Below the pieces are notes generated by a model. The model made no database searches, was not told the DNA's origin, and saw nothing but the letters and a program-made list of their open reading frames with translations. Below are positions 2,301 to 23,422 of a DNA stretch of 64,000 nucleotides, piece by piece (position 1 is the first letter of the stretch; every line of letters starts with the position of its first letter). Origin of the DNA: a virus; IMG/VR virus record IMGVR_UViG_3300010354_000076, positions 1 to 64,000 of that record; one strand, 5' to 3'. The translations under genes were made by a program, and so were the position numbers.

Positions 2301-2977
2301 AAATTAAACTTGTATCTTACAGTCAGCCAACAGAAGATTTCAAAAATCTTAACATTGAAGACGCATTAGATTTAGTTGCTTATTGTGCCAGAGTAAGTAA
2401 TCCTAGCAATCAATTTAACACAGAAACTTCAGAAAAACTAATCAAATATCTAATTAAGCACCAACATTGGTCACCTCTTGAAATGGTAAATGCCTGTATT
2501 GAAATTACCACTACTAGAGACATTGCTCGTCAAATCTTACGTCATCGTTCATTTAGTTTTCAAGAATTTAGTCAAAGGTACGCCGATCCTACTGCTGAAC
2601 TTGACGAGGCGTTTGTATTACGTGAAGCTCGATTCCAGGACACAAAGAATCGTCAAAACTCTGTAGAATTTGATATGACCGATGAGAAGCAAAAACTGCT
2701 AGCCTATGAATGGGAACGTGCTCAAAAACGTGTTTTATTTTCAGTTAAGCAAGAGTATAAATGGGCTATTGACAACGGTATTGCCAAAGAACAGGCTCGT
2801 GCTGTTTTACCCGAAGGACTTACTGTTAGTCGTATGTATATGAATGGAACTATACGTTCATGGATTCACTACATTGATTTACGTAGTGCTAATGGCACAC
2901 AAAAAGAACACATGGAAATTGCTCGGGCTTGCGGCAAAGTTATTTCAGAGATATTTCCATTATCTCAATCACTGTAA
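2297..2977 (+). CDS. thyX: FAD-dependent thymidylate synthase ThyX
   Basis: This flavoenzyme makes dTMP from dUMP using methylene-tetrahydrofolate and NADPH, supplying thymidine for phage DNA. The ThyX signature RHR-x7-S is complete (RHR at residues 82-84, Ser at 92, followed by QRY), and the length of 226 residues fits the family. A downstream RAVLPEGL stretch carries the conserved arginine region that binds dUMP. ThyX rather than T4-style ThyA (td) is common in marine T4-like phages. It is the last gene of its unit. It converges with the minus-strand operon and overlaps the end of the opposing gene by 13 bp, with no terminator visible between them. Confidence 0.95.
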   Translation: MKIKLVSYSQPTEDFKNLNIEDALDLVAYCARVSNPSNQFNTETSEKLIKYLIKHQHWSPLEMVNACIEITTTRDIARQILRHRSFSFQEFSQRYADPTAELDEAFVLREARFQDTKNRQNSVEFDMTDEKQKLLAYEWERAQKRVLFSVKQEYKWAIDNGIAKEQARAVLPEGLTVSRMYMNGTIRSWIHYIDLRSANGTQKEHMEIARACGKVISEIFPLSQSL

Positions 2978-3885
2978 TGTTTTACTGAATCAGATTTTCT
3001 AGTTATATTAAAATTAAATGTCTTAAACCATTTACTTTGAACTGGAGATAAAGGTTCGTCTATAGGGAGCTCATCTTTAATGAGATTCCCTATTTTTATG
3101 GCAAAATCTAAAGGATTGGTTCCGCTAACTTTGTCCTCAAAAAATTGATTTAAATAATCAAAATCCCTTACATTGACAAAATCCCAATTTGTAAAATGAG
3201 TCATGTAACATCCTTGTCTAGCACCGAGTATTGACCATAGCCCATTATCTGTGTCTGCTCCTACCATTGACCATATTCCTAATCTTTGATAATTACCAGG
3301 CCACACATCCTTGAGCTTGCTGACTCGTTCTCCTTGTTCTAAACTCATTTTGACGCCTTCTCTAAATCCCGCTCTCCAAGCTTGAAGAGGACTACCGTTA
3401 TTATGAATTTCACTAAAACATTTATCTAAAGGTAGATATGTAAGGTCCCAACAAAAGTCAATTTGACTTTTGACATTATCGGCGGGTGCGGCCTCGTGCG
3501 TTTTCATTCCTAATACTACATGCTTTGGCCAACACTTTATTCCACCATTGCCATACATTAAACCATTTATTATGTTATAGCTAGGCCAGCTGATAACACA
3601 GTTATCTAAATCAAAATTATCTTCTACTTCTATAACTTGATTTAAAAAATTACCGGTAAGAACATTATCACCGTCAACAGTAATAAATCTTTCTGTTTCA
3701 GATAAATTTGCTGCTGCTTTATGTGCAGCATCACTACCTTTTACACCATGTACTCTTTTAGCCCAGGGTATTTTAGAACAAAGATCTGCGTAATTACGAT
3801 CAGCGTTAGGTTCGTCGTAACTAATATAAATTACATCAAATTCATTTACTGTTATCTTTTTCATATTGTTCGTATAACCATTCAA
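2965..3885 (-). CDS. glycosyltransferase-like protein, 'SYDEPNA' family, copy 1
   Basis: A GT-A-like sugar transferase candidate. After a strand (FDVIYIS) come SYDEPNA, then PWAKRVHGVKGSDAAHKA, and a DGDN motif (residues 71-74) at the end of a hydrophobic strand. This is the usual place for the DxD motif that holds the metal and nucleotide-sugar in GT-A folds. Downstream lie MYGNGGIK and AWRAGFREGVKMSLEQG. Two relatives sit in the same operon: the gene at 26057-26950 and the C-terminal domain of the repeat protein just upstream. It is the last gene of the accessory operon. The longest ORF overlaps the upstream gene by 44 nt; an internal ATG at 3864 gives an N-terminus that matches the 26057 paralogue in length and may be the true start. 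Acceptor and donor are unknown. Confidence 0.65.
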   Translation of the reverse strand: MNGYTNNMKKITVNEFDVIYISYDEPNADRNYADLCSKIPWAKRVHGVKGSDAAHKAAANLSETERFITVDGDNVLTGNFLNQVIEVEDNFDLDNCVISWPSYNIINGLMYGNGGIKCWPKHVVLGMKTHEAAPADNVKSQIDFCWDLTYLPLDKCFSEIHNNGSPLQAWRAGFREGVKMSLEQGERVSKLKDVWPGNYQRLGIWSMVGADTDNGLWSILGARQGCYMTHFTNWDFVNVRDFDYLNQFFEDKVSGTNPLDFAIKIGNLIKDELPIDEPLSPVQSKWFKTFNFNITRKSDSVKHYSD

Positions 3886-6800
3886 AATCGTTTATCTTAA
3901 ATAAGTTTTCAGGTTGTTCTGTAGCAAACTTTCTACCAGCTTGAGCACCTTTGATAGCATATTCGCCATAAAGCTTATCTGCTCCTTGAGTACACCATAC
4001 ATTTAATCTTTCTTCTGTTTCAGCATCAACTTGTCTATCAATAGCTTTACCTGCTAACTTAGCACATTCGCGGAAGGCAGACTTCCATGTACTAAATTCG
4101 TCTGTGTTAAATGCTGTAATATTACTAATAACTTGTACAGGTTTAAAGTTTTTACTTATACTAGTTGTCATGTCAGGACGAGTCACATCCATGTTTAAAG
4201 TGAGTTGTTTAGGAAGTAACTTAACACCACCGTAACCGTATACTAGATTATTAATTGGGTTTCGGCTTCTCCAAACATGTACTGTATCTCTTTCCCAAAC
4301 AGGTATTTCGTAGTCAAAGTTAAAATCATCTACAATTTCAGCATCACCGTCTACTACCCAAAAGTTTTCTGTTTGAGACAATTCAGCAGCCTTTATATGT
4401 GCTTGATGGATTCCTTTAACACCGTGTACACGTTTAATTCTCGGATATAAATTCTTTAATTTTTCAAAAGTAGCATCAGCGTTAACTTCATTGTAACTAA
4501 TAAACACAATGTCATATGGTTTCATCTTACTAGCTACAACATCCCATTCTTTACGCTCAACAAGATATCTGTAATTAATTTCTTTTTCGCCAACAGGAAT
4601 AGATTTAGACATTAAACAAATACCGTTAAAGTTTTCTTCTCCTCTAAACAAATGTTTGAAACTATGATTAATAGTGCGGTCATACGTGTTATGATGCTGG
4701 AAATAAATATCAAATTTAAAATTGTCTATTGGTTCAACTTCACTAGGTATCATCCAAAACATTTCAGTTCTAGAGTTAGATAGTGCATTCTGATAATCTT
4801 GATATGTATCGACAACGAATTTATCATATTCGCATGGACCTGAAGCAACTATATCCCATTCTTTACGTTCTATAAGATAACGGAACGTGACTTCTTTTTC
4901 GCTAATAGGTTTGTTCTTACTTAATAGAAAAATTCCGTTATACAAATCTTCACCGTTAACTCTATGTATAAAGGCATGGTTCTCTCGGCGTTCATAAAAA
5001 TTATGATGGGATATGTACAAATCAAAATTGAAATCATCTGCTGGTTTTAAGTTAGCAGTGGTCATCCAGAACAAGTCAGTAGTTGACTTGTCCATTGCTT
5101 CTAAGTATTGCTGATACGTATCAATTTCAAAAATATCATATTTCTTAGGATAACTGATAATGTAATCGATTTCTTTTTTGTCATTAAAGAATCTATACTT
5201 AAATTCTTTTTCTGTGACTTTATGATATTTGCTGAATAAACAAACGCCGTCAAAATGTTCATCATTTCTAAATACATGAGTGATATGATAGTTATATTTA
5301 GGAACATAATAGTCGAAATCAAAATCTTCAACTATGTCAACATCTGGCCACACAGCCCAAAACATACCAGTAGTTGAGTTTTCACAGGCATCGAGGTAAT
5401 CTTGATAAGTTGTAATATTAAATTTATCAAACTTCTTAGGAAGACTTGCCAAAATATCATACTCTTTTCTATCAACAATAAATCCATAATCAAATTCACG
5501 CTGGCTAATATCTTTCGACTTGGGCATAAGCATTAGGCCATCATAGAATTCACTGTTTCTAAAGATATGTGTTATATTTCTATCGTAAACGTTGTCGTGA
5601 TCAAAATATAAATCAAACTTAAAGTCATCTAATACATTAATATTAGAATGTGTTACCCAGAACATTTCGGTACGTGACTTGGCTTTAGCTTCAAGGTATT
5701 GTTCATATGTATCTGCTACAAACTTATCGTACTGGCAAGGACCTGATGCTACAATATCCCATTCTTTACGTTCAACAATATAACGATGTTCGATTTCTTT
5801 CTTTGAAACTGTCTTATGTTTACTTAAAAGGAATATACCATTATAAAGTTTTTTATCATTTACCAAATGAACAAAGGCATGATTCTCTTGTCTTTCATAG
5901 GCATTGTGATGTGTAATGTACAGATCAAATTTAAAATCATTAACTGGCTGTAAATTAGGAGATGTCATCCAGAACAAGTCAGTAGTTGATTTGTCCATTG
6001 CTTCTAAGTATTGATCATATGTTTCAATTTCAAAGATATCATACTTCTTAGGATAGCTGATAATATAGTCAATTTCTTTTTTATCATTAAAGAATCTATA
6101 CTTAAATTCTTTTTCTGTGACTTTGTGGTATTTGCTGAACAAGCAAATACCGTCAAAGTAGTCACCATTTTTAAATACATGAGGAAGATGTTGATTGTAC
6201 CTAGGAACATAGTAATCAAAGTCAAAATCTTCAACTAACTCAACATCTGACCACACAGCCCAAAACATACCAGTAGTTGATTGTTCACAAGCATCAAGGT
6301 AGTCTTGATAAGTTGTAATATTAAATTTATCAAATTGTTTAGGCACGCTGGCTAATACATCGTATTCTTTCCTAGCTACAATGAACCCGTAATCAAATTC
6401 ACGCTGGCTAATTTCTCTATTTTTAGTAATCAACATTACACCATCATGAAATTCACTATTTCTAAAAATATGTGTCATCATTCTATCATAGATGTTGTTA
6501 TGTTCAAAATATAAATCAAACTTAAAGTCATCTAATACAGTAACACCGCTAGGAATAGCCCAGAACATTTCCGTACGAGATTTAGCTTTAGCTTCAACAT
6601 ATTGTTCATATGTATCAACAACAAATTTATCATATTCGCATGGTCCTGAAGCAACTATATCCCATTCTTTACGTTCCATAATGTATCGATTTTCAATTTC
6701 TCTTTTGCTAACAGGCTTTTTCTTACTAAGAAGAAACACACCGTTATACAATTTTTCTTCTTCGACTAAATGAACAAAGGCATGATTTTCTTGTCGCTCA

Positions 6801-9388
6801 TAGGCATTGTGATGTGTAATATAAAGATCAAAATTGAAATCATCTGCTGGTTTTAAGTTAGCAGTGGTCATCCAGAACAAGTCAGTAATTGACTTGTCCA
6901 TTGCTTCTAAATATTGTTCGTAAGTGTCAATTTCAAAGATATCATATTTCTTAGGATAGCTGATAACATAATCAACTTCTTTCTTCTCGCTAAAGAATCG
7001 ATAGTTAAATTCTTTTTCTGTGACTTTATGATCTTTACTAAACAAGCAAATTCCATCAAAGTGTATGTCATTCTTGAATATATGAGTAATATGTTGATTG
7101 TACCTAGGAACATAGTAATCAAAGTCAAAATCTTCAACCACTTCTACATCAGGCCAAACACACCAAAACATATTTGTTGTTGATGTTTCACATGCTTCTA
7201 AATATTCATTATAACTATTAATGTAGTAAACATCGAATTTAATTGGATCGCTAGCAATTGTTTCTTCTTCCATGCGAGCAAGAATAAATTTGTTATCAAA
7301 TTCTTTTTTAGAAATTTCAGCATGTTTTGTAATTAAAAACACACCGTCATAAAACGCACCGTTTAAATATGCGTGATGAACTGTTCTTTCAAATATTTTA
7401 TCATGCTGATAGTATACATCAAATTTAAAATCAGGGTGTAAGTTTACATCACTAGGAATAGCCCAGAACATTTCCGTACGAGATTTAGCTTTAGCTTCAA
7501 CATACTGTTCATATGTATCAACAATAAACTTATCGTACTGACAAGGGCCAGAAGCAACTATATCCCATTCTTTACGCTCAATAATATAGCGATGCTCTAT
7601 TTCTTTCTTAGTTATTGGCTTGTTTTTACTTAAAAGAAATACACCGTTATATAATCTTTCTTCTCCAACTAAGTGAATGAAAGTATGATTTTCACTTCTA
7701 TCATAAATCTTTTCATGACTAAAATAGACATCAAATTTAAAATCATCAGCTACTTTTAAGTTAGGACTAGTCATCCAAAACATTTCTGTTTTAGACATTT
7801 TCATTGCTTCTAGATATTGTTCATAAGTATCAATTTCAAAGACATCATATTGACAAGCTTCCGAAGCTACAATGTCCCATTCTTTACGCTCAATAATATA
7901 ACGATGTTCAATTTCTTTTTGTGTTACTGGTCTATGCTTACTTAAAAGAAAAATTCCATTATAAAGTTTTTCATCATTGACTAAATGAACAAAGGCATGA
8001 TTTTCAAATCTAGTACCCTGGAAGTTAAATTTAAAATCATCAGCTACTTTTAAGTTAGGACTAGTCATCCAAAATAAATCTGTATTAGAATTTTTAATTG
8101 CTTCTAAGTATTGATCATATGTTTCAATTTCAAAGATATCATATTTCTTTGGGTAACTGATAATATAGTCAATTTCTTTCTTGTCGCTAAAAAATCTATA
8201 TTTAAATTCTTTTTCTGTGACTTTGTGGTATTTGCTAAACAAGCAAACACCGTCAAAGTAATCACCGTTTCTAAATACGTGTGGGAGATGTCGATTGTAC
8301 CTCGGAACATAGTAATCGAAATCAAAATCTTCCACTAACTCAACATCTGACCAAATGGCCCAAAACATACCAGTAGTTGATGTCTCACAAGCATCAAGGT
8401 AGTCTTGATATGTTGTAATATTAAATTTATCGAACTTCTTAGGCAAACTAGCCAGCACATCATATTCTTTTTTATCAACTATAGAGCTATAATCAAATTC
8501 TTTTTTGCTAATTTCTTTTGACCTTGGTAATAACATTAACCCATCATAAAATTCACTGTTTTTAAAAATATGATTTATTTCTCGATCATAGATATTGTTA
8601 TGTTCAAAATACAAGTCGAACTTAAAATCATCTAATACTTTTACGTCACTAGCAATAACCCAGAACATTTCAGTACGTGACTTAGATTTAGCTTCGAGAT
8701 ACTGTTCATATGTATCGACAAGAAATTTATCATATTCGCACGGCCCAGAAGCTACAATGTCCCATTCTTTACGCTCAATAATATAACGATGTTCAATTTC
8801 TTTCTTTGAAACTGGTTTGTGTTTGCTTAAAAGAAAAATACCGTTATATAATTTTTCTCCATTAACTAAATGTACAAATGCGTGATTTTCTTGTCGCTCA
8901 TAGGCATTGTGATGTGTAATATATAAATCAAATTTAAAATCATCAGCTACTTTTAAATTAGGACTAGTCATCCAAAACATATCAGTAGTTGACTTGTCCA
9001 TTGCTTCTAAATATTGCTCATATGTCTCAATTTCAAAGACATCATATTTCTTAGGTTCACTAGCAACAAGGTCAATTTCTTTTTTGTCAGTAAAAAATCT
9101 ATATTTTACTTCTTTATCAGATATATGCTTATTTTTTGGTATAAGAGAAAGGCCATCATAGAAGTCAGCATTTTTCCAAACATGAACATATTCCTCGTCC
9201 CACTTAGGCAAATTAATAGTAAAATCAAAATCTTCTTTAAGATCAATGTCATCCCATACTGCCCAGAACATAGGAGTTAAAGATTTAGATTTTGCTTCTT
9301 TAAAATCTGTTGCTTTTTTTGCAAATGGGTACTTATTTTTAATTTTTTTCCAATTTAAATTATTACCAATTACAAAAATATCATACAT
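3842..9388 (-). CDS. 1848-aa repeat protein: 16 degenerate glycosyltransferase-like modules plus one intact-looking domain
   Basis: Sixteen consecutive modules of 97-112 residues (residues 1-1622) are followed by a 226-residue C-terminal domain. The C-terminal domain resembles the SYDEPNA family: YDIVFISYNEVNAD, then RVHGVKG, VVDGDAE, YGYGGVKLLPK and WKSAFRE. Each module keeps a reduced form of that core: a YDxF strand, an x(S/T)x-FW strand, (D/E)DFxFD, an H-x-(F/W) element, then NG/DG-x-x-L-x-K. In the modules the first Asp of the DxD site is replaced (FWMTSPN, FWAIWSD, FWAIPSD), so they are probably not catalytic. From module 2 on they follow an A-B-C order, four times in full. The function is unknown; a multivalent sugar-binding or scaffold protein is inference. 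No signal peptide or membrane segment is seen. Confidence 0.75.
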   Translation of the reverse strand: MYDIFVIGNNLNWKKIKNKYPFAKKATDFKEAKSKSLTPMFWAVWDDIDLKEDFDFTINLPKWDEEYVHVWKNADFYDGLSLIPKNKHISDKEVKYRFFTDKKEIDLVASEPKKYDVFEIETYEQYLEAMDKSTTDMFWMTSPNLKVADDFKFDLYITHHNAYERQENHAFVHLVNGEKLYNGIFLLSKHKPVSKKEIEHRYIIERKEWDIVASGPCEYDKFLVDTYEQYLEAKSKSRTEMFWVIASDVKVLDDFKFDLYFEHNNIYDREINHIFKNSEFYDGLMLLPRSKEISKKEFDYSSIVDKKEYDVLASLPKKFDKFNITTYQDYLDACETSTTGMFWAIWSDVELVEDFDFDYYVPRYNRHLPHVFRNGDYFDGVCLFSKYHKVTEKEFKYRFFSDKKEIDYIISYPKKYDIFEIETYDQYLEAIKNSNTDLFWMTSPNLKVADDFKFNFQGTRFENHAFVHLVNDEKLYNGIFLLSKHRPVTQKEIEHRYIIERKEWDIVASEACQYDVFEIDTYEQYLEAMKMSKTEMFWMTSPNLKVADDFKFDVYFSHEKIYDRSENHTFIHLVGEERLYNGVFLLSKNKPITKKEIEHRYIIERKEWDIVASGPCQYDKFIVDTYEQYVEAKAKSRTEMFWAIPSDVNLHPDFKFDVYYQHDKIFERTVHHAYLNGAFYDGVFLITKHAEISKKEFDNKFILARMEEETIASDPIKFDVYYINSYNEYLEACETSTTNMFWCVWPDVEVVEDFDFDYYVPRYNQHITHIFKNDIHFDGICLFSKDHKVTEKEFNYRFFSEKKEVDYVISYPKKYDIFEIDTYEQYLEAMDKSITDLFWMTTANLKPADDFNFDLYITHHNAYERQENHAFVHLVEEEKLYNGVFLLSKKKPVSKREIENRYIMERKEWDIVASGPCEYDKFVVDTYEQYVEAKAKSRTEMFWAIPSGVTVLDDFKFDLYFEHNNIYDRMMTHIFRNSEFHDGVMLITKNREISQREFDYGFIVARKEYDVLASVPKQFDKFNITTYQDYLDACEQSTTGMFWAVWSDVELVEDFDFDYYVPRYNQHLPHVFKNGDYFDGICLFSKYHKVTEKEFKYRFFNDKKEIDYIISYPKKYDIFEIETYDQYLEAMDKSTTDLFWMTSPNLQPVNDFKFDLYITHHNAYERQENHAFVHLVNDKKLYNGIFLLSKHKTVSKKEIEHRYIVERKEWDIVASGPCQYDKFVADTYEQYLEAKAKSRTEMFWVTHSNINVLDDFKFDLYFDHDNVYDRNITHIFRNSEFYDGLMLMPKSKDISQREFDYGFIVDRKEYDILASLPKKFDKFNITTYQDYLDACENSTTGMFWAVWPDVDIVEDFDFDYYVPKYNYHITHVFRNDEHFDGVCLFSKYHKVTEKEFKYRFFNDKKEIDYIISYPKKYDIFEIDTYQQYLEAMDKSTTDLFWMTTANLKPADDFNFDLYISHHNFYERRENHAFIHRVNGEDLYNGIFLLSKNKPISEKEVTFRYLIERKEWDIVASGPCEYDKFVVDTYQDYQNALSNSRTEMFWMIPSEVEPIDNFKFDIYFQHHNTYDRTINHSFKHLFRGEENFNGICLMSKSIPVGEKEINYRYLVERKEWDVVASKMKPYDIVFISYNEVNADATFEKLKNLYPRIKRVHGVKGIHQAHIKAAELSQTENFWVVDGDAEIVDDFNFDYEIPVWERDTVHVWRSRNPINNLVYGYGGVKLLPKQLTLNMDVTRPDMTTSISKNFKPVQVISNITAFNTDEFSTWKSAFRECAKLAGKAIDRQVDAETEERLNVWCTQGADKLYGEYAIKGAQAGRKFATEQPENLFKINDFEWLYEQYEKDNSK
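4523..9388 (-). repeat. tandem module array with a 903-bp higher-order period
   Basis: Module boundaries counted from the protein: 9388-9053 (M1), 9052-8741 (A), 8740-8441 (B), 8440-8150 (C), 8149-7856 (extra A), 7855-7544 (A), 7543-7244 (B), 7243-6953 (C), 6952-6641 (A), 6640-6341 (B), 6340-6050 (C), 6049-5738 (A), 5737-5438 (B), 5437-5147 (C), 5146-4835 (A), 4834-4523 (B-like). Every A-B-C triplet is 104+100+97 codons, that is 903 bp, in all four complete copies. Neighbouring triplets look about 85% identical at DNA level by eye, and some stretches are closer still. Confidence 0.9.
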
Positions 9389-9393
9389 AAAAT

Positions 9394-10125
9394 TTATTCC
9401 GTAATAAAATTATACAACTCTTCGGCGAAAAGTCGATGAGGTTCTTCTCCGTGATGCCAATATTGTGCTTTTAAATTTTCATATCCAGCGTTTTTATATT
9501 TCCAATAAAATGCTTCATCATTGTTATCATGATTTAGATACTTAGATTTATCTATCATATTTAAGAAAAATTCGGTATGCTTATCTCTATTAAACATGTG
9601 CATAGTATTAGACATTACATAGTTAATATTTTGAGACTTAAAAAACCACTGTAACTGTAAGACTAAATTAGCACTTAATATTTCTAAATATGTTAAATTA
9701 TCAGCAATAAATTTTTGATAAAAAGGTAATACACGTTTTTCATACCCGTCGCCACCTGGCCATCCTTGATTAATTCTAAAAAATCTAGCGTCATATGTTG
9801 ATAACCAATCAGCTGTTTTATTCGCACAAGAATAATCAGTTCCCTGGATACTAGGAATTTCTATTCTAGAGCTTTCTGTCCAAGACACAGATACAAATAC
9901 TTTCATAGTATTAGGATCATAATTTTGAGAAAACCACTCTAAAACTAATCTTGCTATAGTGGGGTTAGCAGCAGCACAACTAGAAATGTTAATGGGCCTA
10001 TATCCTAACTTTTCTGCTAAAATGTTTCCAAATGAATGATTTCTATTGTAAACACTATCTTGACTACCGTCTATTTCAGATCCAGCTGCGTGACTACACC
10101 CAGCTACTAACATGATTTTTTCCAT
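9394..10125 (-). CDS. SGNH/GDSL-like hydrolase, 243 aa
   Basis: A probable SGNH-fold esterase or deacylase. The block I nucleophile region reads GCSHAAG (Ser11), a conserved Asn-containing turn sits near residue 54 (AAANPTIARL), and the C-terminal block has HxxGEEPHRLFAEEL (His230), where the family carries its catalytic His. SGNH enzymes in polysaccharide loci commonly add or remove acyl groups on sugars, so trimming a glycan is a reasonable inference. It lies 2 nt after the stop of its upstream gene and 5 nt before the repeat-protein gene. A second SGNH protein is coded at 17998-18804, but the two are only distantly alike. Confidence 0.6.
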   Translation of the reverse strand: MEKIMLVAGCSHAAGSEIDGSQDSVYNRNHSFGNILAEKLGYRPINISSCAAANPTIARLVLEWFSQNYDPNTMKVFVSVSWTESSRIEIPSIQGTDYSCANKTADWLSTYDARFFRINQGWPGGDGYEKRVLPFYQKFIADNLTYLEILSANLVLQLQWFFKSQNINYVMSNTMHMFNRDKHTEFFLNMIDKSKYLNHDNNDEAFYWKYKNAGYENLKAQYWHHGEEPHRLFAEELYNFITE

Positions 10126-10127
10126 AA

Positions 10128-11366
10128 TTAAATATACAATTTTTGAACTTCTTTAAAAGGCGACTTTTCAACAAGTATATTATAATTATGCCTAAGAGTA
10201 GGCATCATTGCTTCATAAAGACTTTTACACTCTATCAACGACATAGATCCAATTTGTTTAATCAATTTTAAAATTTTAATCATCCGTTCTTCATGATTAA
10301 AACACAAATCATAATCTTCATTCCAAAATTCATTAAATGTTTTAAACCCGTATTCTTTAGCGTACTTTAAAGTTTCAGGCGGAGCTGCTACAATAAAAGG
10401 TGTCATATATCTAATAGGCTGAAATAATTTTTCGCTAAAATTACCAGTGTGTTGAGCGAATCTTGTTTCATTAACAATATCACAAAAAGTATTATTGTAA
10501 AAATTTTCTAAAATTTTATTTGTATTATTTCCCAATGCAGGATTATTATGACCAAAATATTTTACGCTCACAGGGTAATAAGCAGAACAGGAATCTGTTA
10601 CTTCAATTGGTTCAGCTTCGCTAATATCAAGTAATGAAGGACAGTTTTCATTTAAAATTTCTAATCCAGATTTAACTTGTTCGTATAACTCATGTTCTTG
10701 TAGTTTCCATTCGTTAAAATTAAACCACAAATCAGCATTTAAAGTTTCAAATGATGATTTAAAATACCAACTATAATAACTATTCTCGTTAGCTAAAAAA
10801 GATGTTATTATATGTCTATGCTTAGTATGCCTCCAATTTAAACAAATAAAGTGTTTTTTAAAATCCTTGTTTATATTTGTTTCAAACACAGAGTAATTTT
10901 TAAGAAATAAATCATCACATATTATTTTAAAACAATCTTTATATATTGGGAAAAAAATGTTGGCTTGGTAATCACATGTATGTACAACTACATTTGTTAA
11001 TCGATTACATTCGACGTAATTTTTTATAGACTCTAATTCTTCAGCTCGGACTAGATTAATATCTACATCAGTTAAAAATTCTGTATAAAAACCTCTATTA
11101 TGTCTTTTATCTTTTAAAAATTGACATAATGGTTCATATAAAAAAATATGTAGACCTTGTTCATTTAGGTATCTTATTTCAGTTTGACTGTGAGTAAAAG
11201 ATTCTAGTCCCTGTAAATAACCATTACCCATATGAATGATAATAGGAAATTTTTCCAATCCTGTTAATCTCATAGTTGAAATTAAAAAAGGATTAGACAA
11301 TGTTTCTTCTTTTGATTTTGTTTCAGGAAAATTAAACCAATGGGTGTTCTGTAAAGGATTGTTCAA
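10128..11366 (-). CDS. GT-B-like protein of an unnamed family (EK/SYD motif), copy 1
   Basis: One of three relatives in this operon. The shared features are a central (F)xxLNWRHTKHR-type block and a C-terminal block FSEKLFQPIRYMTPFIVAAP, followed by a GFKTFxxFWxEDYD ending. A Glu-Lys pair followed by a proline/hydrophobic stretch resembles the donor-binding region of retaining or fucosyltransferase-like GT-B enzymes, so a sugar transferase is inferred, not shown. At 412 residues this is the longest copy. It overlaps the upstream hydroxylase gene by 35 nt. AT content looks high even for this operon. I know of no characterised member. Confidence 0.5.
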   Translation of the reverse strand: MNNPLQNTHWFNFPETKSKEETLSNPFLISTMRLTGLEKFPIIIHMGNGYLQGLESFTHSQTEIRYLNEQGLHIFLYEPLCQFLKDKRHNRGFYTEFLTDVDINLVRAEELESIKNYVECNRLTNVVVHTCDYQANIFFPIYKDCFKIICDDLFLKNYSVFETNINKDFKKHFICLNWRHTKHRHIITSFLANENSYYSWYFKSSFETLNADLWFNFNEWKLQEHELYEQVKSGLEILNENCPSLLDISEAEPIEVTDSCSAYYPVSVKYFGHNNPALGNNTNKILENFYNNTFCDIVNETRFAQHTGNFSEKLFQPIRYMTPFIVAAPPETLKYAKEYGFKTFNEFWNEDYDLCFNHEERMIKILKLIKQIGSMSLIECKSLYEAMMPTLRHNYNILVEKSPFKEVQKLYI

Positions 11367-11859
11367 CTAGCTCTCCAGTTATTTGTAAAGTGTATCTAGG
11401 TGCTGTTCCGATATTGCTAGCAGCATGGGGAACATCATTGTTCCACATGAACCAGTCACCCTGCTTCCAATTTACATATCCTTTACCGTCTATTTCCAAG
11501 TAATGTCCAGATTTCCAGTCTTCTAACATTAATAAAACTCTACACACTTTAGAAGGATTAGCATTAAACAATTCTATATATCTAAGATATTTGTCTGAGT
11601 GTATAGGCATTATCTCTAAAGTCTTCATTAGATAAAAACAGTAAACTTGATTTTTTAATCCAAATTGATTAAACTTATCCAAGTATTCTGGCATAGGATT
11701 ACGATTATCATACATCCATCCTGTAAAACTTTTTACATAATCGTATCCTTGACTTTCCCAATCTTTAACCTCGTGATTAGTAATTGGCTGTTTTACATAA
11801 TTGAAACTTTTGTATGATTCGTCCCAAAACGGTTTAATATGACCAGTCTTAATTATCAT
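11332..11859 (-). CDS. 2OG-Fe(II) oxygenase, aspartyl/asparaginyl hydroxylase-like
   Basis: A 175-residue double-stranded beta-helix protein. The iron-binding pair is visible as HSD (His87, Asp89), the distal histidine as VPHAASN (His145), and the 2-oxoglutarate-binding arginine as Arg155 ten residues later. The spacing fits the aspartyl/asparaginyl beta-hydroxylase-like group. The reaction would be hydroxylation of a protein side chain or of a small metabolite in the pathway of the neighbouring enzymes; the substrate cannot be read. It overlaps the amidinotransferase gene by 4 nt, so the two are translated together. Phages often carry such oxygenases, usually without known substrates. Confidence 0.7.
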   Translation of the reverse strand: MIIKTGHIKPFWDESYKSFNYVKQPITNHEVKDWESQGYDYVKSFTGWMYDNRNPMPEYLDKFNQFGLKNQVYCFYLMKTLEIMPIHSDKYLRYIELFNANPSKVCRVLLMLEDWKSGHYLEIDGKGYVNWKQGDWFMWNNDVPHAASNIGTAPRYTLQITGELVEQSFTEHPLV

Positions 11860-12827
11860 CGTCTAACTATATCAAGTGTTACACAATGAAAGCCGCCACC
11901 TAATGTTCTTTGCTGTCTCATAGGTAGCATAGCACATTCTATTCCGTGTTTTTCTAGCTCAATACGTAAGGGGTGTTGGTTTTCTTCTAGCGCAACTAAC
12001 TTTGTATTTACGCTAAAAAGATTCATATTAATCCAAACACTGGCATTACAGTATCCCGGATGGTGCCCTATATCAACTGGTTCTGGGCACCAAATAACAT
12101 CCCAATTTTGTAAAGGCTTAGGTAGTTGCTTTATACTTTTAATTCTACTAGGATTAAGTAACATTAATCCTTCTCTAAGCAAACAAATAGTACTATCTAA
12201 GTGCATATAACTATATACACCTTCTATAGTCCATACTTTTTTATCTGGGCAAAGCTCTTGAAGATATTTTGCTCCTAGATTATTACCGCTGTTGCTAACA
12301 AGATAATATAGATTATCATTATCTCGTAAAATATTTGCTGCGTCAAACGCAGGTTCGGTTTCATTTAAGGCAAGTATATCAGGATTACCTACACAGAATG
12401 GATTGTATAAACTATTTGAGTGGCTACATGTTTTTACAGTTAAGTTTCCAAATTTACTTAAATGATGACTAATGGCATAGTATTCGTTACGACGAGCATA
12501 CAACGGATTAGGAGTTGCTAAAATTATATTGTCATGAACTAACACTATGTCTCTTGGACAATAATTATAGTAGCTAGGAATAAAATTAGGATCAGGTCTA
12601 AATACTTCAACTCCTTCGCCTAATAAAAAATTACAAAAATTTTCTAAATCTTCGTTAGCTTCTTCTATAACTTTTTTAGGATATTTTCCTGTTGGAATTT
12701 GGTCTACATTTTTTTCGCTAGCATAGTTTACTGTTCTTAGACTGATATCTAATCTAGGAATTGTAGCATCAGTAGCTGATCCAACAATTACTGTTTTAAG
12801 AGGATCCCATTCATTTTTACTTAACAT
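11856..12827 (-). CDS. amidinotransferase (glycine/inosamine amidinotransferase family)
   Basis: This enzyme is expected to transfer an amidino group from arginine to an amine acceptor. The catalytic triad of the family is intact: Asp162 in EPAFDAAN, His209 in YMHLDST, and Cys315 in GGFHCVTLD near the C-terminus. The length of 323 residues is a little short of eukaryotic GATM but fits bacterial members. It is coded directly after a DegT-type aminotransferase (11 nt overlap). That is the pairing used to make guanidino-cyclitols and guanidino-sugars in aminoglycoside pathways, where an aminotransferase first supplies the amine. That it makes a guanidinylated sugar here is inference. Confidence 0.85.
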   Translation of the reverse strand: MLSKNEWDPLKTVIVGSATDATIPRLDISLRTVNYASEKNVDQIPTGKYPKKVIEEANEDLENFCNFLLGEGVEVFRPDPNFIPSYYNYCPRDIVLVHDNIILATPNPLYARRNEYYAISHHLSKFGNLTVKTCSHSNSLYNPFCVGNPDILALNETEPAFDAANILRDNDNLYYLVSNSGNNLGAKYLQELCPDKKVWTIEGVYSYMHLDSTICLLREGLMLLNPSRIKSIKQLPKPLQNWDVIWCPEPVDIGHHPGYCNASVWINMNLFSVNTKLVALEENQHPLRIELEKHGIECAMLPMRQQRTLGGGFHCVTLDIVRR

Positions 12828-13410
12828 TAAATACCTTCATTTTACTTATATCAGGATAATCATGATTTGACCAATATTTAGGCTCAATATCTTTTACTTG
12901 ATGAAATTTTTTAATTCCTTCAGTAGCAACTTCAGGTGTCATATAATAATGATATCCGATCATATCAACATCTTGTTCTTTCCATAGCACGTCAGGAAGC
13001 CTACCGTCATAACTCATTTTTTTTAATTTTATAGCAGAACTCTTATCATCCGTTAAGATCATTCCTCCGCGACCTAAATTTAAATGTTTACGGAATTGAA
13101 AACTTAAACACATAAATGTACCTGCTTTATATCCATTTTGTTTCCAATATACAGCAGCATCTATAATATTAGTTTTACCTAAATAATAATAACTTTGCCA
13201 ATTAGTATCACTCCATTCGAACGGTATACCAAGTTTTATTAGTGTCATTGGAATACTCAAATAAGTATGTGTAGGACACACTGTCGAAGACGGCTTCGTA
13301 TATCTTAAACAAAGTTCTATTGCATGTGTACAACAATCTGTTGTTACTGCGTACGGAGCATTAAAATAATCAGCTATTAATTTTTCAAAGTCATTTATCG
13401 ACGACATCAA
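12817..13410 (-). CDS. short DegT/DnrJ/EryC1-type aminotransferase
   Basis: A PLP-dependent sugar aminotransferase-like protein of only 197 residues; family members are usually about 370. The large-domain core is present: TTDCCTHAIELCL, an IIDAA strand with the PLP-ring Asp84, and SFQFRKHLNLGRGG with the Schiff-base Lys108. The usual C-terminal small domain is missing or reduced to about 60 residues. It could be a minimal phage form that works as a dimer or needs a partner. No remnant of a longer gene is seen downstream, because the amidinotransferase begins within its last codons. It overlaps the B12-radical SAM gene by 20 nt. Confidence 0.75.
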   Translation of the reverse strand: MMSSINDFEKLIADYFNAPYAVTTDCCTHAIELCLRYTKPSSTVCPTHTYLSIPMTLIKLGIPFEWSDTNWQSYYYLGKTNIIDAAVYWKQNGYKAGTFMCLSFQFRKHLNLGRGGMILTDDKSSAIKLKKMSYDGRLPDVLWKEQDVDMIGYHYYMTPEVATEGIKKFHQVKDIEPKYWSNHDYPDISKMKVFNVK

Positions 13411-15646
13411 ACTTCCTTTTTATGCTAGTGATAGGAATAACAATATTAGAAAGGTGCATGTCTTGCTTTTCAGGAATGGCTTCCATATTAGACTTATTTG
13501 ATACTTTAACTTCGTAATCTTTGAAGTTACCCCAATTGCCCTTTCCTCTGTATCTAAATTGAAAGGTAAAATCAATTGTATTATTTAAAATATGCTCTTC
13601 TTCTAGCAATTCGCCGAAGTCAGATCCGTCGCGACCTGTTTCAATATCCCACGTAGGCTTTGCTAATTTTCTTGCTCTTTTAGCAGTATTACTCATCATT
13701 CTACTATAATCTTGAGCAAAGAACGGGCCTTTGCGGCCGACAGGAGGAGGTTCTCTAGTATCATAAGGGTTATCTATTTGATCAAATTTATATTTAAAAT
13801 CAGCTGTCCATTCTCCTGCATCATTAATTTTAAATTTAAACACAGCATTATACATACCAGGACCGTATTGACTTCCAAATTCTCTTAGATCAATGTCAGG
13901 ATTAAATAATACTTCTGCTTCATATCCGCCCCTAGTTCTCCATAACATTCTAAAGAAAGGCCACATTTCGTTTACAAGAGTATCGGCAAAAGGATTAATA
14001 TTTGCTTTGATTATTTCATAATCAAATTTTTCATATTCAATTTCTTTTATTGTAGTTGGATTATCTAATTTTATTTTATAATGTTCTTTAGCTAAACTAA
14101 ATCTTATAGGGTAACCAAAAGGAATTTCAGTACAGCCAGTCATGAAATCAAGAAACATATGAAAAGTTTTTACTCGTGTCATTACATGAGTGCCACCTTT
14201 CTTAAAATCTCTAGTAATCCAATGATTTTGATACTTATGCCAACTGATATTAAATTTATGTGGATTTTGTCCTACAATTGTTTCAGGGCCTAGTCCATAC
14301 CCTACACCAGCACCAACATTATTAATATTCATATTACGCATACGCCATAAGAATGTCATACTGTCAGCAAAGTCTTGTAATGTTTCGGTAGGAAACCCTA
14401 CTATCCAATTAGTAGCAGCAAAAATACCAACTTTTTTACCATCTATAAAATTTTGTTCCATCTCTGCGATAGTAACACCCTTGGCCATATCATCTAGTAC
14501 ATGTTGGCTACCACTTTCAATGCCGTAATTTAACATGATACAGCCGCCAGCTTTTAAGTCTTTAAAATACTCTAGATCCATGCGGCCATCACATCTTGAG
14601 TATCCTGTCCAATTAATTTTTAGACCCTTTGCTTCAACTGCTTTACAAAATGCTCGAAGTTCTTTTAAATTACCGTTAACTAGACTATCAATAAACCAAA
14701 CAACGTCTGTTCCCTTGTTATAGTACAGCCATTCAAGTTCGGTAACTAAATCCACCGCTTGTCGTTGTCGATATTTCCAAAAATGTGTTTCTTCGCAGAA
14801 TGTACATTTGGCTGTACATCCTCTACTAATTTCAGTATTAACTCCGTTTGGTAAATCATATAAACTAAAATCAATACTCTCGTAATCTGGCATTGGGAGG
14901 CCATTAATGTTTACTCTCTCGTCTTCGGGTTGCGACAGAATTACAGTTTCCGTATGTTCGTTTCCATTTTCAATATCTTCTAGGAGCCTTAATAAATTTA
15001 CTTCTCCTTCACCAACAACAACATAGTCATAATAAGTCTGTATGTTAAACCAACTTTTGTGTGCATTAGGTCCGCCTACTGCAATTTTAATATGCGGAGC
15101 ACGGCGTTTTAATTCTTGGCACATCCATTTTGTTGGCTCTTCAGAAATATAGTACATTGAAAATCCTACTACATGAGGATTTAACTCTATAATATCATCT
15201 ATAGCTTTAGTTAACAACGGTTCAAGTACTGGATGAATGTCTTTTAAGTAAGTGTCGCCTAACCAGTGCCAGCTGGCAGCAGGGTCCCATAATCTAAAAG
15301 GTAATTTTTTATTAGGAATCCAATCTTCTTGGTGCTGTCTGTATGCCTTAACATTTAAATCCATGATATGTGTTTCATACCCGGCACTCTTAGCTACTCC
15401 ACTTAATCTAGCTAAACTAAATGGAGGCATATAAGGACTCCATTCGGGACACAATGCCAGCACTAATTTTGTATTTCTTGTTTTATAATCTACATAGACT
15501 GGTGTTAAGTTTTTTTGTACAGTTGCTTTGGCATATGGCGCAATGGCTCTCATCATAGATAAATGACGTGCATCTGCCAGATCCTCAGGAGGCTTTTCAG
15601 GCAAAACAACTTCTTTTTTAGCCAATCCCTTTAAATTAAAATCCAA
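13391..15646 (-). CDS. cobalamin-domain radical SAM protein, 751 aa
   Basis: Residues 60-240 form a Rossmann-like cobalamin-binding domain (CPEWSPYMPPFSLARLSG, then HVVGFSMYYISEE, IAVGGPNAH and VVVGEGE). I do not see a DxHxxG motif, so cobalamin, if bound, would be without the lower-axial His. Residues 270-460 are a radical SAM barrel with the 4Fe-4S motif CTAKCTFC (Cys277, 281, 284) and a later GIESGSQ strand typical of this class. The last 270 residues are an uncharacterised extension. Members methylate or rearrange unactivated carbons. The gene has a strong ribosome binding site (TAGGAGAA) and one of the few gaps in the operon, with GTTAAATA 19 nt upstream. Confidence 0.85.
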   Translation of the reverse strand: MDFNLKGLAKKEVVLPEKPPEDLADARHLSMMRAIAPYAKATVQKNLTPVYVDYKTRNTKLVLALCPEWSPYMPPFSLARLSGVAKSAGYETHIMDLNVKAYRQHQEDWIPNKKLPFRLWDPAASWHWLGDTYLKDIHPVLEPLLTKAIDDIIELNPHVVGFSMYYISEEPTKWMCQELKRRAPHIKIAVGGPNAHKSWFNIQTYYDYVVVGEGEVNLLRLLEDIENGNEHTETVILSQPEDERVNINGLPMPDYESIDFSLYDLPNGVNTEISRGCTAKCTFCEETHFWKYRQRQAVDLVTELEWLYYNKGTDVVWFIDSLVNGNLKELRAFCKAVEAKGLKINWTGYSRCDGRMDLEYFKDLKAGGCIMLNYGIESGSQHVLDDMAKGVTIAEMEQNFIDGKKVGIFAATNWIVGFPTETLQDFADSMTFLWRMRNMNINNVGAGVGYGLGPETIVGQNPHKFNISWHKYQNHWITRDFKKGGTHVMTRVKTFHMFLDFMTGCTEIPFGYPIRFSLAKEHYKIKLDNPTTIKEIEYEKFDYEIIKANINPFADTLVNEMWPFFRMLWRTRGGYEAEVLFNPDIDLREFGSQYGPGMYNAVFKFKINDAGEWTADFKYKFDQIDNPYDTREPPPVGRKGPFFAQDYSRMMSNTAKRARKLAKPTWDIETGRDGSDFGELLEEEHILNNTIDFTFQFRYRGKGNWGNFKDYEVKVSNKSNMEAIPEKQDMHLSNIVIPITSIKRKFDVVDK

Positions 15647-15665
15647 AATTATTCTCCTAACAAAA

Positions 15666-15673
15666 TATTTAAC
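15666..15673 (-). promoter_or_regulatory. late-promoter-like GTTAAATA upstream of the B12-radical SAM gene
   Basis: The minus strand reads GTTAAATA, sharing TAAATA with the T4 late promoter TATAAATA. It sits 19 nt before the ATG at 15646. This is one of only two clear intergenic gaps inside the accessory operon, and the spacing matches that seen in front of the virion genes. It may allow part of the island to be transcribed late. AT-rich sequence makes a chance match possible. Confidence 0.4.
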
Positions 15674-15675
15674 TT

Positions 15676-16683
15676 TTATTTAATAATCCCAGAATTTTTA
15701 TTCATTAGAATCTTAAAATTATGATTAACTATGTCAATTATACCATGTTGCCATTCTGACCATTCTTTAGGAGAGAATGAACATAATCTTTCTACTTCTT
15801 TCCAAACTTCGTTAAATCTCTTATTATCATCTTCAATACTATCATATGATTCATTGATAAAAGGACTAAATGTTTTATAACCCAAATCTTCTAAATATTT
15901 AAGGCTATGGGTAGGAGCAACTAATATAAAAGGATGCTTGTGAATAATTGGCCTAAAAGTTTTTTCAGTTAAAAATATAGACTCACCTGCTTCTATATAG
16001 TCTTTATAAAATAAAGTTTCAGTTATTAAACTAAAATAAGAATCTGAATGATATATAAAATCGCCTTGACGGACATCAACTGGATTTTGACGCTCGTCTG
16101 ACATATTTAACATTAAGGGGAATATATCTTTATGTTGCTTAAAAGTATCAACGAGTTGTTTATCTCGAAAAGTTTGATTTATAATATCATGCCCGTATTG
16201 GAATGAAGAATAAGTTTTTTCTAGGAATCCGCTTTTTAATATATTATAGAATATATTAATCCTATGCTCTCTTGGCATCTTGTTAAAACAACAAAATAAT
16301 TTTGACTTTGGTGTTGGAGAATATTCAACATAACTAGAATTAGTAATTGAATTATAATATTCTAGATTTCCCTTCTGATGAACTTCAAATAGATTTGAAC
16401 ATTTAACTGTTAATATAGGGTTTATTTTATTCTTCTTACAGTAAGATTCATAAACATCTTGTCCGTTATACGCAGAGCAAAGATAGTAATATTCAATGTT
16501 AGGATTATCAAGTAATCGAATTATTTTGTGTATTTTTCTTATTATATCAAAATAGACTGCTTCATTTATATTATCAAAAATTACTTTTTTGTATCCTTTT
16601 GATATTTCTTGTTTGATATTGTTGACCATATTTACTGTGTCTAACATACAGAAATGCTGGCCACCATAGGTGCCAGCATACAC
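15676..16683 (-). CDS. GT-B-like protein of the EK/SYD family, copy 2 (5' end uncertain)
   Basis: The same family as the genes at 10128 and 18788: a central FCCFNKMPREHR block and a C-terminal FLTEKTFRPIIHKHPFI block followed by GYKTF and NESYD. The only canonical start is GTG at 16683. However, the frame remains open upstream to a stop at 16804-16806, and its translation looks protein-like (for example NLELTSDQIYGC, then VARNYVPNLDDEYIHV). No ATG, GTG or TTG lies in that stretch. The upstream dehydrogenase ends in a run of ten A at 16769-16778, and a -1 shift there would join the two proteins. Natural frameshifting, a recent mutation, or a homopolymer sequencing error are all possible. Confidence 0.55.
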   Translation of the reverse strand: MYAGTYGGQHFCMLDTVNMVNNIKQEISKGYKKVIFDNINEAVYFDIIRKIHKIIRLLDNPNIEYYYLCSAYNGQDVYESYCKKNKINPILTVKCSNLFEVHQKGNLEYYNSITNSSYVEYSPTPKSKLFCCFNKMPREHRINIFYNILKSGFLEKTYSSFQYGHDIINQTFRDKQLVDTFKQHKDIFPLMLNMSDERQNPVDVRQGDFIYHSDSYFSLITETLFYKDYIEAGESIFLTEKTFRPIIHKHPFILVAPTHSLKYLEDLGYKTFSPFINESYDSIEDDNKRFNEVWKEVERLCSFSPKEWSEWQHGIIDIVNHNFKILMNKNSGIIK

Positions 16684-16763
16684 ATGAATATACTCGTCAT
16701 CTAAATTTGGAACATAATTTCTAGCAACAAATTTACATCCGTAAATTTGATCACTAGTTAGTT

Positions 16764-17960
16764 CTAAATTTTTTTTTTGCGAGTATCGCCGTATCGAACT
16801 ATTTCATAAGTTTCGCCGGGCGCTATATCCTCAATTTTTCTCCACGGATCAATAATGGTACATCCAGATGGTAGTGCTGGCTTTACCCATTCATCCCAAT
16901 ATCCTATTAGATATACATCTGTCCAATCTTTTCTAATGTCAAGGTCATTTGTATTTGGATCATAGTAATGTACGTTTCCGCCTAATTCAGTAATATAATG
17001 TCCAACTAACAAACTCGGACTACCGATTGTATATGGAACTCCTGGCTTGTAGGCCTTGCCAAGGATTGTTACATTCTTTCCATATTCAAGGCACTTTTTT
17101 GCCATTCTCTTAGCTTGTAGCTCTCTAGCTTTCATTATAGAATCAAAAAGATCATAACCTAAATCAAGTCGATCTGCTAGATATCTTAATGCAATATTAT
17201 CTCTAGGATGGCATGCTCCACCGTCACCAAGGCCAGCATTCATATAAGCAGGACCCATGATTCGATATGTACTTCGCTTAAGAGCATTTGTTACAACATC
17301 AACATTAATATTACCGTTAATTTCAGCAACATCTTGAATCATGTTGACTAAAGCAAGTTTAGTACTAATAAACGTATTATAAAAAATCTTGATAGACTCT
17401 GCTTCATCCCAAGTTCCAACTTCATAACGAGGATTATTTTTCATAAATGGCTTATAAAAATTAATAAGCTCGTCGGCATCTCCTGTGATGCTACCATCTT
17501 CTGTTCCAATAATAACCATCTCAGGATTAACCATGTCCCATTTTACTGTACCCATAGCAATTAAATATGGATTGTATATAAAACGAGCATTTGTAATAAG
17601 AGGTTCAAGATGTGCCCGAACTGTGCCTGGAAGAACTGTACTAATCAATACTACTAATTGACGTTTATTGACATGCTTATTAACTTCTGTTAAAATTCCT
17701 TTAACAATAGTGTAGTCAAAGTCTTTATTTGGTAAGTGACTAGTTGGTGTTTCTCCACCGTAAACTGGATCGTGAGGAGTAGGAGCCGCAATGAAGATTA
17801 TGTCTCTATTATTAACTGCTTCTCCAATTGAGGCAGCCATTTTAAAATTAGCAGGATTTCGTGGTTCAACATCGTACCCAACAACATCGTAATGTTCTGC
17901 CATAACCTCGGCACAATCTTGTCCAAGTTTTCCTACACCTATCATCGCAACTTTTTTCAT
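16764..17960 (-). CDS. UDP-glucose/GDP-mannose dehydrogenase family protein
   Basis: An NAD-dependent nucleotide-sugar dehydrogenase, expected to oxidise UDP-glucose or a related sugar nucleotide twice to the uronic acid. The N-terminal NAD fold shows GVGKLG (residues 8-13) and STVLPGT. The central domain has SIKIFYNTFIS with the Lys/Asn pair, and the catalytic cysteine is Cys250 in GDGGACHPRD, a variant of the usual GGxCxPKD. The C-terminal Rossmann domain starts at GKAYKPG. The length of 398 residues is normal. The C-terminus reads RKKKI because of the A10 run discussed for the next gene. It has AGGACAG as ribosome binding site and ATTAAATA 21 nt before the start. It anchors the idea that the operon handles activated sugars. 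Confidence 0.85.
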   Translation of the reverse strand: MKKVAMIGVGKLGQDCAEVMAEHYDVVGYDVEPRNPANFKMAASIGEAVNNRDIIFIAAPTPHDPVYGGETPTSHLPNKDFDYTIVKGILTEVNKHVNKRQLVVLISTVLPGTVRAHLEPLITNARFIYNPYLIAMGTVKWDMVNPEMVIIGTEDGSITGDADELINFYKPFMKNNPRYEVGTWDEAESIKIFYNTFISTKLALVNMIQDVAEINGNINVDVVTNALKRSTYRIMGPAYMNAGLGDGGACHPRDNIALRYLADRLDLGYDLFDSIMKARELQAKRMAKKCLEYGKNVTILGKAYKPGVPYTIGSPSLLVGHYITELGGNVHYYDPNTNDLDIRKDWTDVYLIGYWDEWVKPALPSGCTIIDPWRKIEDIAPGETYEIVRYGDTRKKKI

Positions 17961-17981
17961 ATTCTGTCCTATGTAAATTTT

Positions 17982-17989
17982 TATTTAAT
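17982..17989 (-). promoter_or_regulatory. late-promoter-like ATTAAATA upstream of the dehydrogenase
   Basis: The minus strand reads ATTAAATA 21 nt before the start codon at 17960, in a 37-nt gap between genes. It shares TAAATA and spacing with the candidate late promoters in front of the virion genes. A single AT-rich site alone would not be convincing; the support comes from the recurrence. Confidence 0.4.
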
Positions 17990-17997
17990 ATTTTTCA

Positions 17998-18804
17998 TTA
18001 CCACCATTTCGAAAAATGGCCATCGCCGTGTTCGTTTGTATTAAACAAAGATAATATTTCATCTCTTGTTTTAGTACGATGTAACATACTAGTGGCTTCT
18101 TTAGCATACTTTTCAGATTTTTCTGTTAGATTAAACCCCAATTTTTCCAAATAACAACGATATCTCCACGGATTGGGATGATAATCGCCCACTTCGTTTT
18201 TGTTCCATATGTATACATGTCCGTTGTCCCATGTACCCTTCATTTCTAAATCAAATAGGCATTGAGGAGTTTGATTAATAGTTTCTTTAAAAGAATCAAG
18301 AATATCTTTTATGTCTGTTTCATCTTTCTTAGAATAATCAAAATCTTCATGTTGTTGATACCAATAAGGTGTTGAAGCTAGTGTTACAACTGTACATGGC
18401 AAAGATTTTAGATAAGATGTGGCTAAAGTAATTAAACTTAAATCTCTAATTAAATAACCTTTAGGATCAGCGAACTTTTTTACCCATTTTTCATCATATT
18501 CTTGTTGAGTAAAAATATTCCCAGGAGTATGCCAATAGTTATTGTAATAACGATCTTCTCGACAAAATGTCGACCACATTACAACAACTAAATCATCTTT
18601 ATTAAAATTAAATTTTAAATTAGCCTCTAATGCCCTACTAGAAATAAAAAGATTTCCTGCTCCGGATTTTCCGCAATTATAAAATTCAGCGTTTGGCATT
18701 TCTTTAGCAAGTATATCTGCCCATGTAGGCCAACAATATCCAGTAAAACTACAACCAAAAGCAAAAAATCTTTTATATTTAGAAAAATCAATATCTTGAA
18801 TCAT
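17998..18804 (-). CDS. SGNH/GDSL-like hydrolase, 268 aa
   Basis: The blocks of the SGNH fold are in order: FAFGCSFTGY with the nucleophile Ser19, GKSGAGN with the oxyanion Asn51, and VGDYHPNPW with Asp207/His209 as the acid-base pair. This is a cytosolic-type enzyme with no signal peptide. Family members are esterases or acyl-transfer enzymes on carbohydrates, and the setting among glycosyltransferase-like genes suggests sugar de-acylation (inference). The C-terminus (GHFSKWW) is unusual and aromatic. It overlaps the upstream gene by 17 nt and is followed by a 37-nt gap. Confidence 0.7.
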   Translation of the reverse strand: MIQDIDFSKYKRFFAFGCSFTGYCWPTWADILAKEMPNAEFYNCGKSGAGNLFISSRALEANLKFNFNKDDLVVVMWSTFCREDRYYNNYWHTPGNIFTQQEYDEKWVKKFADPKGYLIRDLSLITLATSYLKSLPCTVVTLASTPYWYQQHEDFDYSKKDETDIKDILDSFKETINQTPQCLFDLEMKGTWDNGHVYIWNKNEVGDYHPNPWRYRCYLEKLGFNLTEKSEKYAKEATSMLHRTKTRDEILSLFNTNEHGDGHFSKWW

Positions 18805-22170: not shown

Positions 22171-22171
22171 T

Positions 22172-23407: not shown

Positions 23408-23422
23408 TCTAGTTCTCCAACA

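Follow-up and report, generated by a model that had tools for sequence, protein, structure and literature searches.

We have identified, in a window of 64,000 nucleotides (positions 1 to 64,000 of the IMG/VR record IMGVR_UViG_3300010354_000076, a viral contig of 67 kb), a gene, from an uncultured giant phage, whose product joins sixteen shortened and apparently inactive copies of a glycosyltransferase (GT) core to a single GT domain with an intact active site. In this protein, the core of an enzyme has turned into a repeat unit, present in up to sixteen copies beside one live copy in the phages that carry it. The modules are under purifying selection and keep much of the former active-site cleft, which strongly supports the view that they are functional. 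Considering these features, we tentatively favour a reading in which the array serves as a rigid docking platform of pseudo-enzymes and keeps an acceptor near one GT2-like active site; we regard this reading as quite possible, if somewhat short of probable.

Architecture of the array gene

The array gene was read as one open reading frame on the minus strand (9388-3842), encoding a protein of 1848 amino acids. A reading of the DNA made without database searches, hereafter the sequence-only reading, had given these coordinates and this size correctly, while the strand was absent from it. The 17 FW sites of the protein, spaced by 97-132 residues, delimit 16 modules of 97-113 amino acids and a C-terminal domain beginning at residue 1625, in agreement with the sixteen modules and intact C-terminal domain previously proposed. 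Comparison of the modules across the array sorted them into types A, B and C, which had also been named before and proved to be real. Type A comprises modules 2 (residues 115-218; 8735-9046; FWMTSPN), 5 (416-513; 7850-8143; with a 6-aa deletion), 6 (514-617; 7538-7849), 9 (815-918; 6635-6946), 12 (1116-1219; 5732-6043) and 15 (1417-1520; 4829-5140), all on the minus strand, as are the other features of this gene. Type B comprises modules 3 (219-318; 8435-8734; FWVIASD), 7 (618-717; 7238-7537; a divergent member), 10 (919-1018; 6335-6634) and 13 (1220-1319; 5432-5731), and type C modules 4 (319-415; 8144-8434; FWAIWSD), 8 (718-814; 6947-7237), 11 (1019-1115; 6044-6334) and 14 (1320-1416; 5141-5431). 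Two modules diverge from all three types: module 1 (2-114; 9047-9385), which belongs to an N-cap class and shows FWAVWDD at the DxD site, and module 16 (1521-1624; 4517-4828), the last of the array.

Modules of types A, B and C in succession form a block of 301 amino acids that was duplicated as a whole. The four three-module blocks of the array share 71-83% identity in DNA, the pairwise nucleotide identity of three A-B-C blocks is 81-83%, and single modules reach up to 94% protein identity. The 16+1 architecture recurs in an independent metagenome contig (L001, 66% identity), and therefore the array is not an assembly artefact.

The C-terminal domain (residues 1625-1848, 224 residues; 3845-4516) is well supported as a GT2-like GT-A glycosyltransferase. 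It resembles GT2 enzymes (Glycos_transf_2, PF00535; GT-A fold) in the order of its elements, in the intact DxD motif (D1680-G-D1682; 4343-4351), in the Gly-Gly of the G-loop, and in an acidic residue that opens the following helix, D1739 (4172-4174), which alignment and predicted secondary structure mark as the putative xED catalytic base. However, this domain is too divergent for Pfam, scoring below the curated Glycos_transf_2 cut-off, and it differs from the GT2 family in the N-terminal array of dead half-domains added to it. One relative (L087) scores above the same cut-off (29.8 vs 23.3 bits).

Homology of the modules to the glycosyltransferase domain

A profile HMM built from modules 1-16 alone matched the C-terminal domain with an i-E of 3e-12 and matched no other protein of the cluster significantly. 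In profile-profile comparisons with hhalign, 46 inner modules aligned with 37 catalytic domains at 96.3% (E 2e-9), and the first modules, which form the cap class, aligned with the GT domain from the first strand to the G-loop at 99.3% (E 1.7e-20), whereas the control, an unrelated radical-SAM alignment, reached 0.1%. The inner-module profile matched 154 of 401 GT domains of the family and the cap profile 238 of 401; neither matched any of 2379 unrelated ORFs or 401 shuffled sequences. By these comparisons, the common ancestry of the modules and the GT domain is beyond chance, and the earlier description of the modules as glycosyltransferase cores is borne out.

We also found no known repeat family that matches the modules better, as the sequence-only reading would require. 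Searches of Pfam, PHROGs, NCBIfam and PDB sequence profiles returned weak, sub-threshold or short partial matches at most, the best of them being PHROG 16394 (function unknown; E 4e-8, best stretch 34 aa). Searches of PDB sequences with the GT, inner-module and cap profiles returned no credible relative. Three candidates from Pfam and NCBIfam searches with the whole protein (PTEN_C2, ERCC4 and aldose epimerase) were dropped, being far below the cut-offs.

Structures were predicted with AlphaFold2 on alignments of relatives, for modules 1-4 (pLDDT 95.1, pTM 0.83) and for modules 15-16 together with the GT domain (the capped model; pLDDT 91.5, pTM 0.80). The order of the modules relative to one another is confidently predicted, as indicated by the pTM of 0.83 over four modules. 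In the model of the GT domain, the elements run b-a-b-a-b (DxD), and then come the strand of the G-loop, helices and a long strand, which is the GT-A order. Module 1 shows the same order in its model, and modules 2-4, 15 and 16 lack one beta-alpha unit relative to the GT domain. Module 1 alone among the six modelled modules has the full nucleotide-binding b1-a1-b2-a2-b3; the remaining ten align without it.

When the capped model was compared with the PDB by Foldseek, GT-A enzymes were the best matches (E down to 3e-5, probability 1.00), among them ppGalNAc transferases, the K4 chondroitin polymerase (2z86), SunS/ThuS and WrtF. For the model of modules 1-4, the list was led by WrtF and the PBCV-1 capsid glycosyltransferase, and the leading matches were GT-A glycosyltransferases and related nucleotidyltransferases, with E values of 0.018 or worse and none below 0.001. 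The GT-A-like element order and the lead of GT-A enzymes in this list both agree with the GT-A fold previously proposed for the modules. The assignment of this fold rests on sequence homology, together with predicted-structure matches that are consistent with it but not significant by themselves.

Active site and selection

Every one of 300 distinct GT domains in the family keeps the DxD motif, as do all 37 of a smaller set. The C-terminal domain of the window carries FWVVDGD, and the first Asp of the motif is replaced in 16 of 16 modules, exactly as had been noted before. Across the family, this Asp is absent from 484 of 485 scorable modules, in which P, W, S or T usually stands in its place; the lone module that has it (FYADDPN) is without the last Asp. 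The DxD site, which had been described as lost, is thus only half gone, because the last position is mostly kept as D (226 modules), N (163) or E (54), together 443 of the 485 (91%). Other active-site positions are conserved still more strictly across 489 modules, namely the Gly of the G-loop and the His of the H-x-F strand (99% each), and a Glu that alignment and predicted secondary structure place at the position of the putative xED base (98%). The roles of DxD, the G-loop and xED in GT-A enzymes have been described, and all of these are positions of the cleft (PMC7185993). As far as the alignments tell, the catalytic set of the modules is broken in a specific way, and much of the cleft is kept. 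Since the modules have lost the first Asp of DxD and, except for the cap, one beta-alpha unit, they should be catalytically dead and should not transfer sugar.

Module 1 had been read as an intermediate between a full domain and a reduced module. Its nucleotide-binding lead-in is indeed kept; however, it is not a one-off intermediate, but a member of the N-cap class conserved across phages. In this class b1-a1-b2 is retained and the last Asp is nearly invariant. These features, and the D, N or E at the last DxD position of most modules, are what would be expected if the modules still bound nucleotide-sugar, as donor reservoirs or allosteric sensors. On the other hand, the non-cap modules are without the first Asp and without one beta-alpha unit of the nucleotide-binding half, and we consider this explanation very improbable.

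Pairwise comparison of modules of the same type gave dN/dS values of 0.06-0.28, which indicate strong purifying selection. For this reason "decayed", the word that the sequence-only reading applied to the modules, is wrong, and several active-site positions are kept besides. The same values bear on whether the array is the product of runaway duplication, that is, a set of functionless neutral repeats in a tolerant gene. The close identity in DNA of the three A-B-C blocks would fit such an origin, but neutral repeats would agree neither with this selection nor with the presence of equal module classes in many diverged phages, and we disfavour this explanation as extremely improbable. Given dN/dS and cleft positions that are 91-99% conserved, it is strongly supported by sequence that the modules are functional.

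Based on these results, we propose the following mechanism for the docking platform. The protein would have a single active site, that of the C-terminal 224 residues, which form a GT2-like GT-A domain with intact DxD and G-loop and a putative xED base; the N-terminal 1624 residues repeat the core half of this fold sixteen times. The array may fold as a rigid rod or superhelix, in which the former active-site clefts of the modules would bind a repetitive acceptor in a multivalent manner. A candidate for this acceptor is a growing glycan, or a repeated protein of the virion such as a tail fibre. In this case, the array would keep the acceptor close to the single catalytic domain. We favour this mechanism because the cleft positions are conserved, the modules are under purifying selection and their packing is confidently predicted, and also because changes in copy number are tolerated, the array is separable from the GT, and LH3 offers a precedent. 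The C-terminal place of the GT in complete fusions and the late-promoter-like element ahead of the gene run also agree with it. Against docking, the conserved polar residues of the modules could serve folding or contacts between modules, and bind no ligand.

Relatives in other phages

A scan of IMG/VR found 80 loci with arrays; hundreds more relatives were matched when the GT domain or the stand-alone GT served as query. The array loci are redundant, so that counts of architectures cannot be read as frequencies. Among uncultured aquatic phages, the array proteins have 1-16 modules each. Complete ORFs form a series from GT alone through one, two and three modules followed by GT to 16 modules followed by GT, and in complete fusions of modules and GT, the GT is at the C-terminal end. 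This set of extant proteins with 0, 1, 2, 3 and more modules is a natural series that allows one to ask how an enzyme fold turns into a binding repeat and whether the length of the array controls glycan synthesis.

A tree of 96 domains has one fully supported branch with the modules on one side and the GT domains on the other, which strongly supports a single origin of the modules. The first modules group together (support 90), and the N-cap is therefore an old positional class; finer forks of this tree, built on 96 columns, are uncertain. The module types recur across many diverged phages. In three of these (L101:5419-7672, L114:5362-7669 and L206:4430-6698), a gene of four modules overlaps at its end the start of a gene of one module and GT, so that most of the array is a gene of its own; the module-GT proteins of the three share 62-73% identity. 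Judging from these split genes, the array can act in trans.

Several relatives show other fusions. In L085, L087, L152 and L159, two GT domains are joined and both are live. Such proteins were rejected as ancestors of the module-GT proteins, as DxD is intact in both domains and the N-terminal domain resembles the long-GT kind more closely. A protein of 443 amino acids (L138:6347-7675) joins a degenerate long GT without DxD to an active short GT, and from its sequence it is apparently an independent fusion of a dead and a live domain. On a contig of an Oligoflexia bacterium, a radical SAM-SPASM domain is joined to a GT domain of the array family (L088:6747-8708). This fusion and the two-GT fusions suggest that the GT is tied to radical-SAM and GT partners.

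We also observed additions at the ends of some relatives. L159 (ORF 5993-9343) carries behind its two GT domains a C-terminal extension (residues ~620-860) with a short repeat of its own, LRKAVxExNLHSLFRLLGDEHE, and the array protein of L054 (ORF 4120-7455) has a weakly SCP2-like C-terminal extension (residues ~930-1000) that is below cut-off. In the long-array phages L006 and L021, the first ~160 residues form a very divergent extra unit (NGQDVLKNHFL...) ahead of the cap module, with marginal similarity to the GT profile.

Comparison with known proteins

A single dead GT domain joined to a live one is already known. The accessory (AC) domain of LH3, the collagen lysyl hydroxylase/glycosyltransferase, is a non-catalytic GT fold suggested to act in substrate recognition or partner binding (PMC6082870). 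LH3 resembles the phage protein in joining a dead GT-A-like fold to an active GT; however, it is an animal enzyme with one such domain, whereas the phages have 1-16 tandem shortened copies, and the likeness is one of arrangement alone, with no close sequence relation shown. The K4 chondroitin polymerase (2z86) likewise has multiple GT-A domains in a single chain. Both of its GT-A domains are active, whereas DxD is kept in one of the 17 domains of the phage protein. Jumbo cyanophages carry GT clusters for capsule modification (PMC7824862) and are similar in that several GT paralogues lie together in a phage glycan cluster, but the text describing them contains none of the words "radical SAM", "tandem" or "inactive".

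In a Foldseek search of BFVD with the model of modules 1-4, the top two matches were uncharacterised proteins of uncultured Caudovirales phages, A0A6J5LK21 (804 aa; E 2e-18) and A0A6J5L5L5 (1076 aa; E 2e-16), and the rest were mostly glycosyltransferases. From these structural matches, both proteins are probably members of the array family; they are deposited as uncharacterized, and we found no description of them. With the whole protein, its C-terminal quarter, the stand-alone GT and a short relative as queries, no match was found among ~50,700 annotated phage genomes, a silence that is odd at E 10. Open-access literature on tandem inactive GT domains in phages yielded nothing relevant. In the libraries, structure databases and papers searched, we found no description of a phage protein with dead GT domains in series. 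The sequence-only reading knew of no described phage protein made of serial decayed glycosyltransferases; this holds for descriptions, but environmental data contain many relatives, and BFVD has two.

Pseudo-enzymes are usually single dead paralogues. The phage arrays may constitute a new class of repeat protein, in which a catalytic domain has been trimmed, disarmed and multiplied in tandem into a rigid multivalent binding scaffold for its own active relative, and in which the number of copies (1-16) would tune the processivity of phage glycan synthesis or the length of its product; we consider this wider proposal possible but doubtful. The present analysis also exposes a widespread, unannotated glycosyltransferase family, often near radical-SAM genes, in uncultured aquatic phages.

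Genomic context

The array gene belongs to a run of glycan and radical-SAM genes that share one orientation, and stands close to the end of this run. The cluster at 9394-29178 (minus strand) includes a UDP-sugar dehydrogenase, a DegT fragment, an Asp/Asn hydroxylase-like gene and other GT-like genes, and its radical-SAM genes comprise a B12 radical SAM, one further gene and four of the twitch/SPASM type. The latter four are paralogous and stand in succession (20899-26060, minus strand); three matched the NCBIfam twitch-domain radical SAM, and the fourth is a homologue. The gene at 2965-3885 (minus strand), which overlaps the array gene and comes after it in the run, encodes a long stand-alone GT of 306 amino acids that is a full-length homologue of the C-terminal domain (blastp E 5e-33). 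Another long stand-alone GT belonging to this family is encoded at 26057-26950 (minus strand; blastp E 7e-27), and its match to Pfam Glycos_transf_2 (E 0.0079) is below the cut-off.

Since the GT domain of the array itself matches the long-GT query, long-GT neighbours were counted from an adjacency list; of 32 representative array loci, 10 have a long-GT gene directly beside the array gene or overlapping it. About half of the representative loci have radical-SAM genes in the vicinity of the array. This proximity, together with the joint work suggested by the fusions in L085, L087, L152, L159 and L088, argues for an assembly scaffold, whose modules would bind no glycan but partner enzymes (the overlapping long GT, radical-SAM proteins and other GTs) and arrange them by the active GT. 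However, no adjoining long-GT gene was found in the other 22 loci, some of which are on short contigs, and the number of partners shows no obvious shift as the copy number ranges from 1 to 16. Moreover, docking of proteins alone does not predict near-invariant positions in the GT cleft. We therefore rate the scaffold as unlikely, and retain the docking of an acceptor as the preferred reading.

The gene at 15646-13391 heads the gene run that contains the array gene, and a TAAATA element resembling a late promoter lies 20 nt upstream of it (15666-15671, minus strand). On the minus strand of the window, TAAATA occurs at 15666, 17982, 32482, 38916, 56804, 57284 and 62837, and six of these seven elements precede the start of a minus-strand gene by 20-25 nt. 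In the window overall, no hexamer is more depleted than TAAATA, and TATAAATA is absent, against 15.5 expected from dinucleotide shuffles. In non-coding DNA, seven are found where 0.4 are expected (P ~2e-7, uncorrected for the AT-rich intergenic composition). These counts suggest that TAAATA is a T4-type late promoter avoided elsewhere in the window, and its position suggests that the run with the array gene may be expressed late.

The array gene is downstream of, and co-directional with, tail genes. This gene order and the late-promoter-like element would suit a spacer or stalk, a rigid rod, perhaps on the virion, that places the terminal GT by its length, while the chemistry of the modules is irrelevant; the confidently predicted order between modules and the variable array length fit it as well. 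Such a role is quite unlikely in our view, considering that module types recur across diverged phages, that the cleft is conserved beyond the need of a neutral spacer, and that the array is mostly split from the GT protein in three phages.

Among the structural genes, the baseplate wedge protein is closest (35-37%) to those of jumbo phages such as Atu_ph07, Phosso, SCTP-2 and RaK2, and a giant protein of 4781 amino acids is encoded between the baseplate and tail-fibre genes (38976-53321, minus strand).
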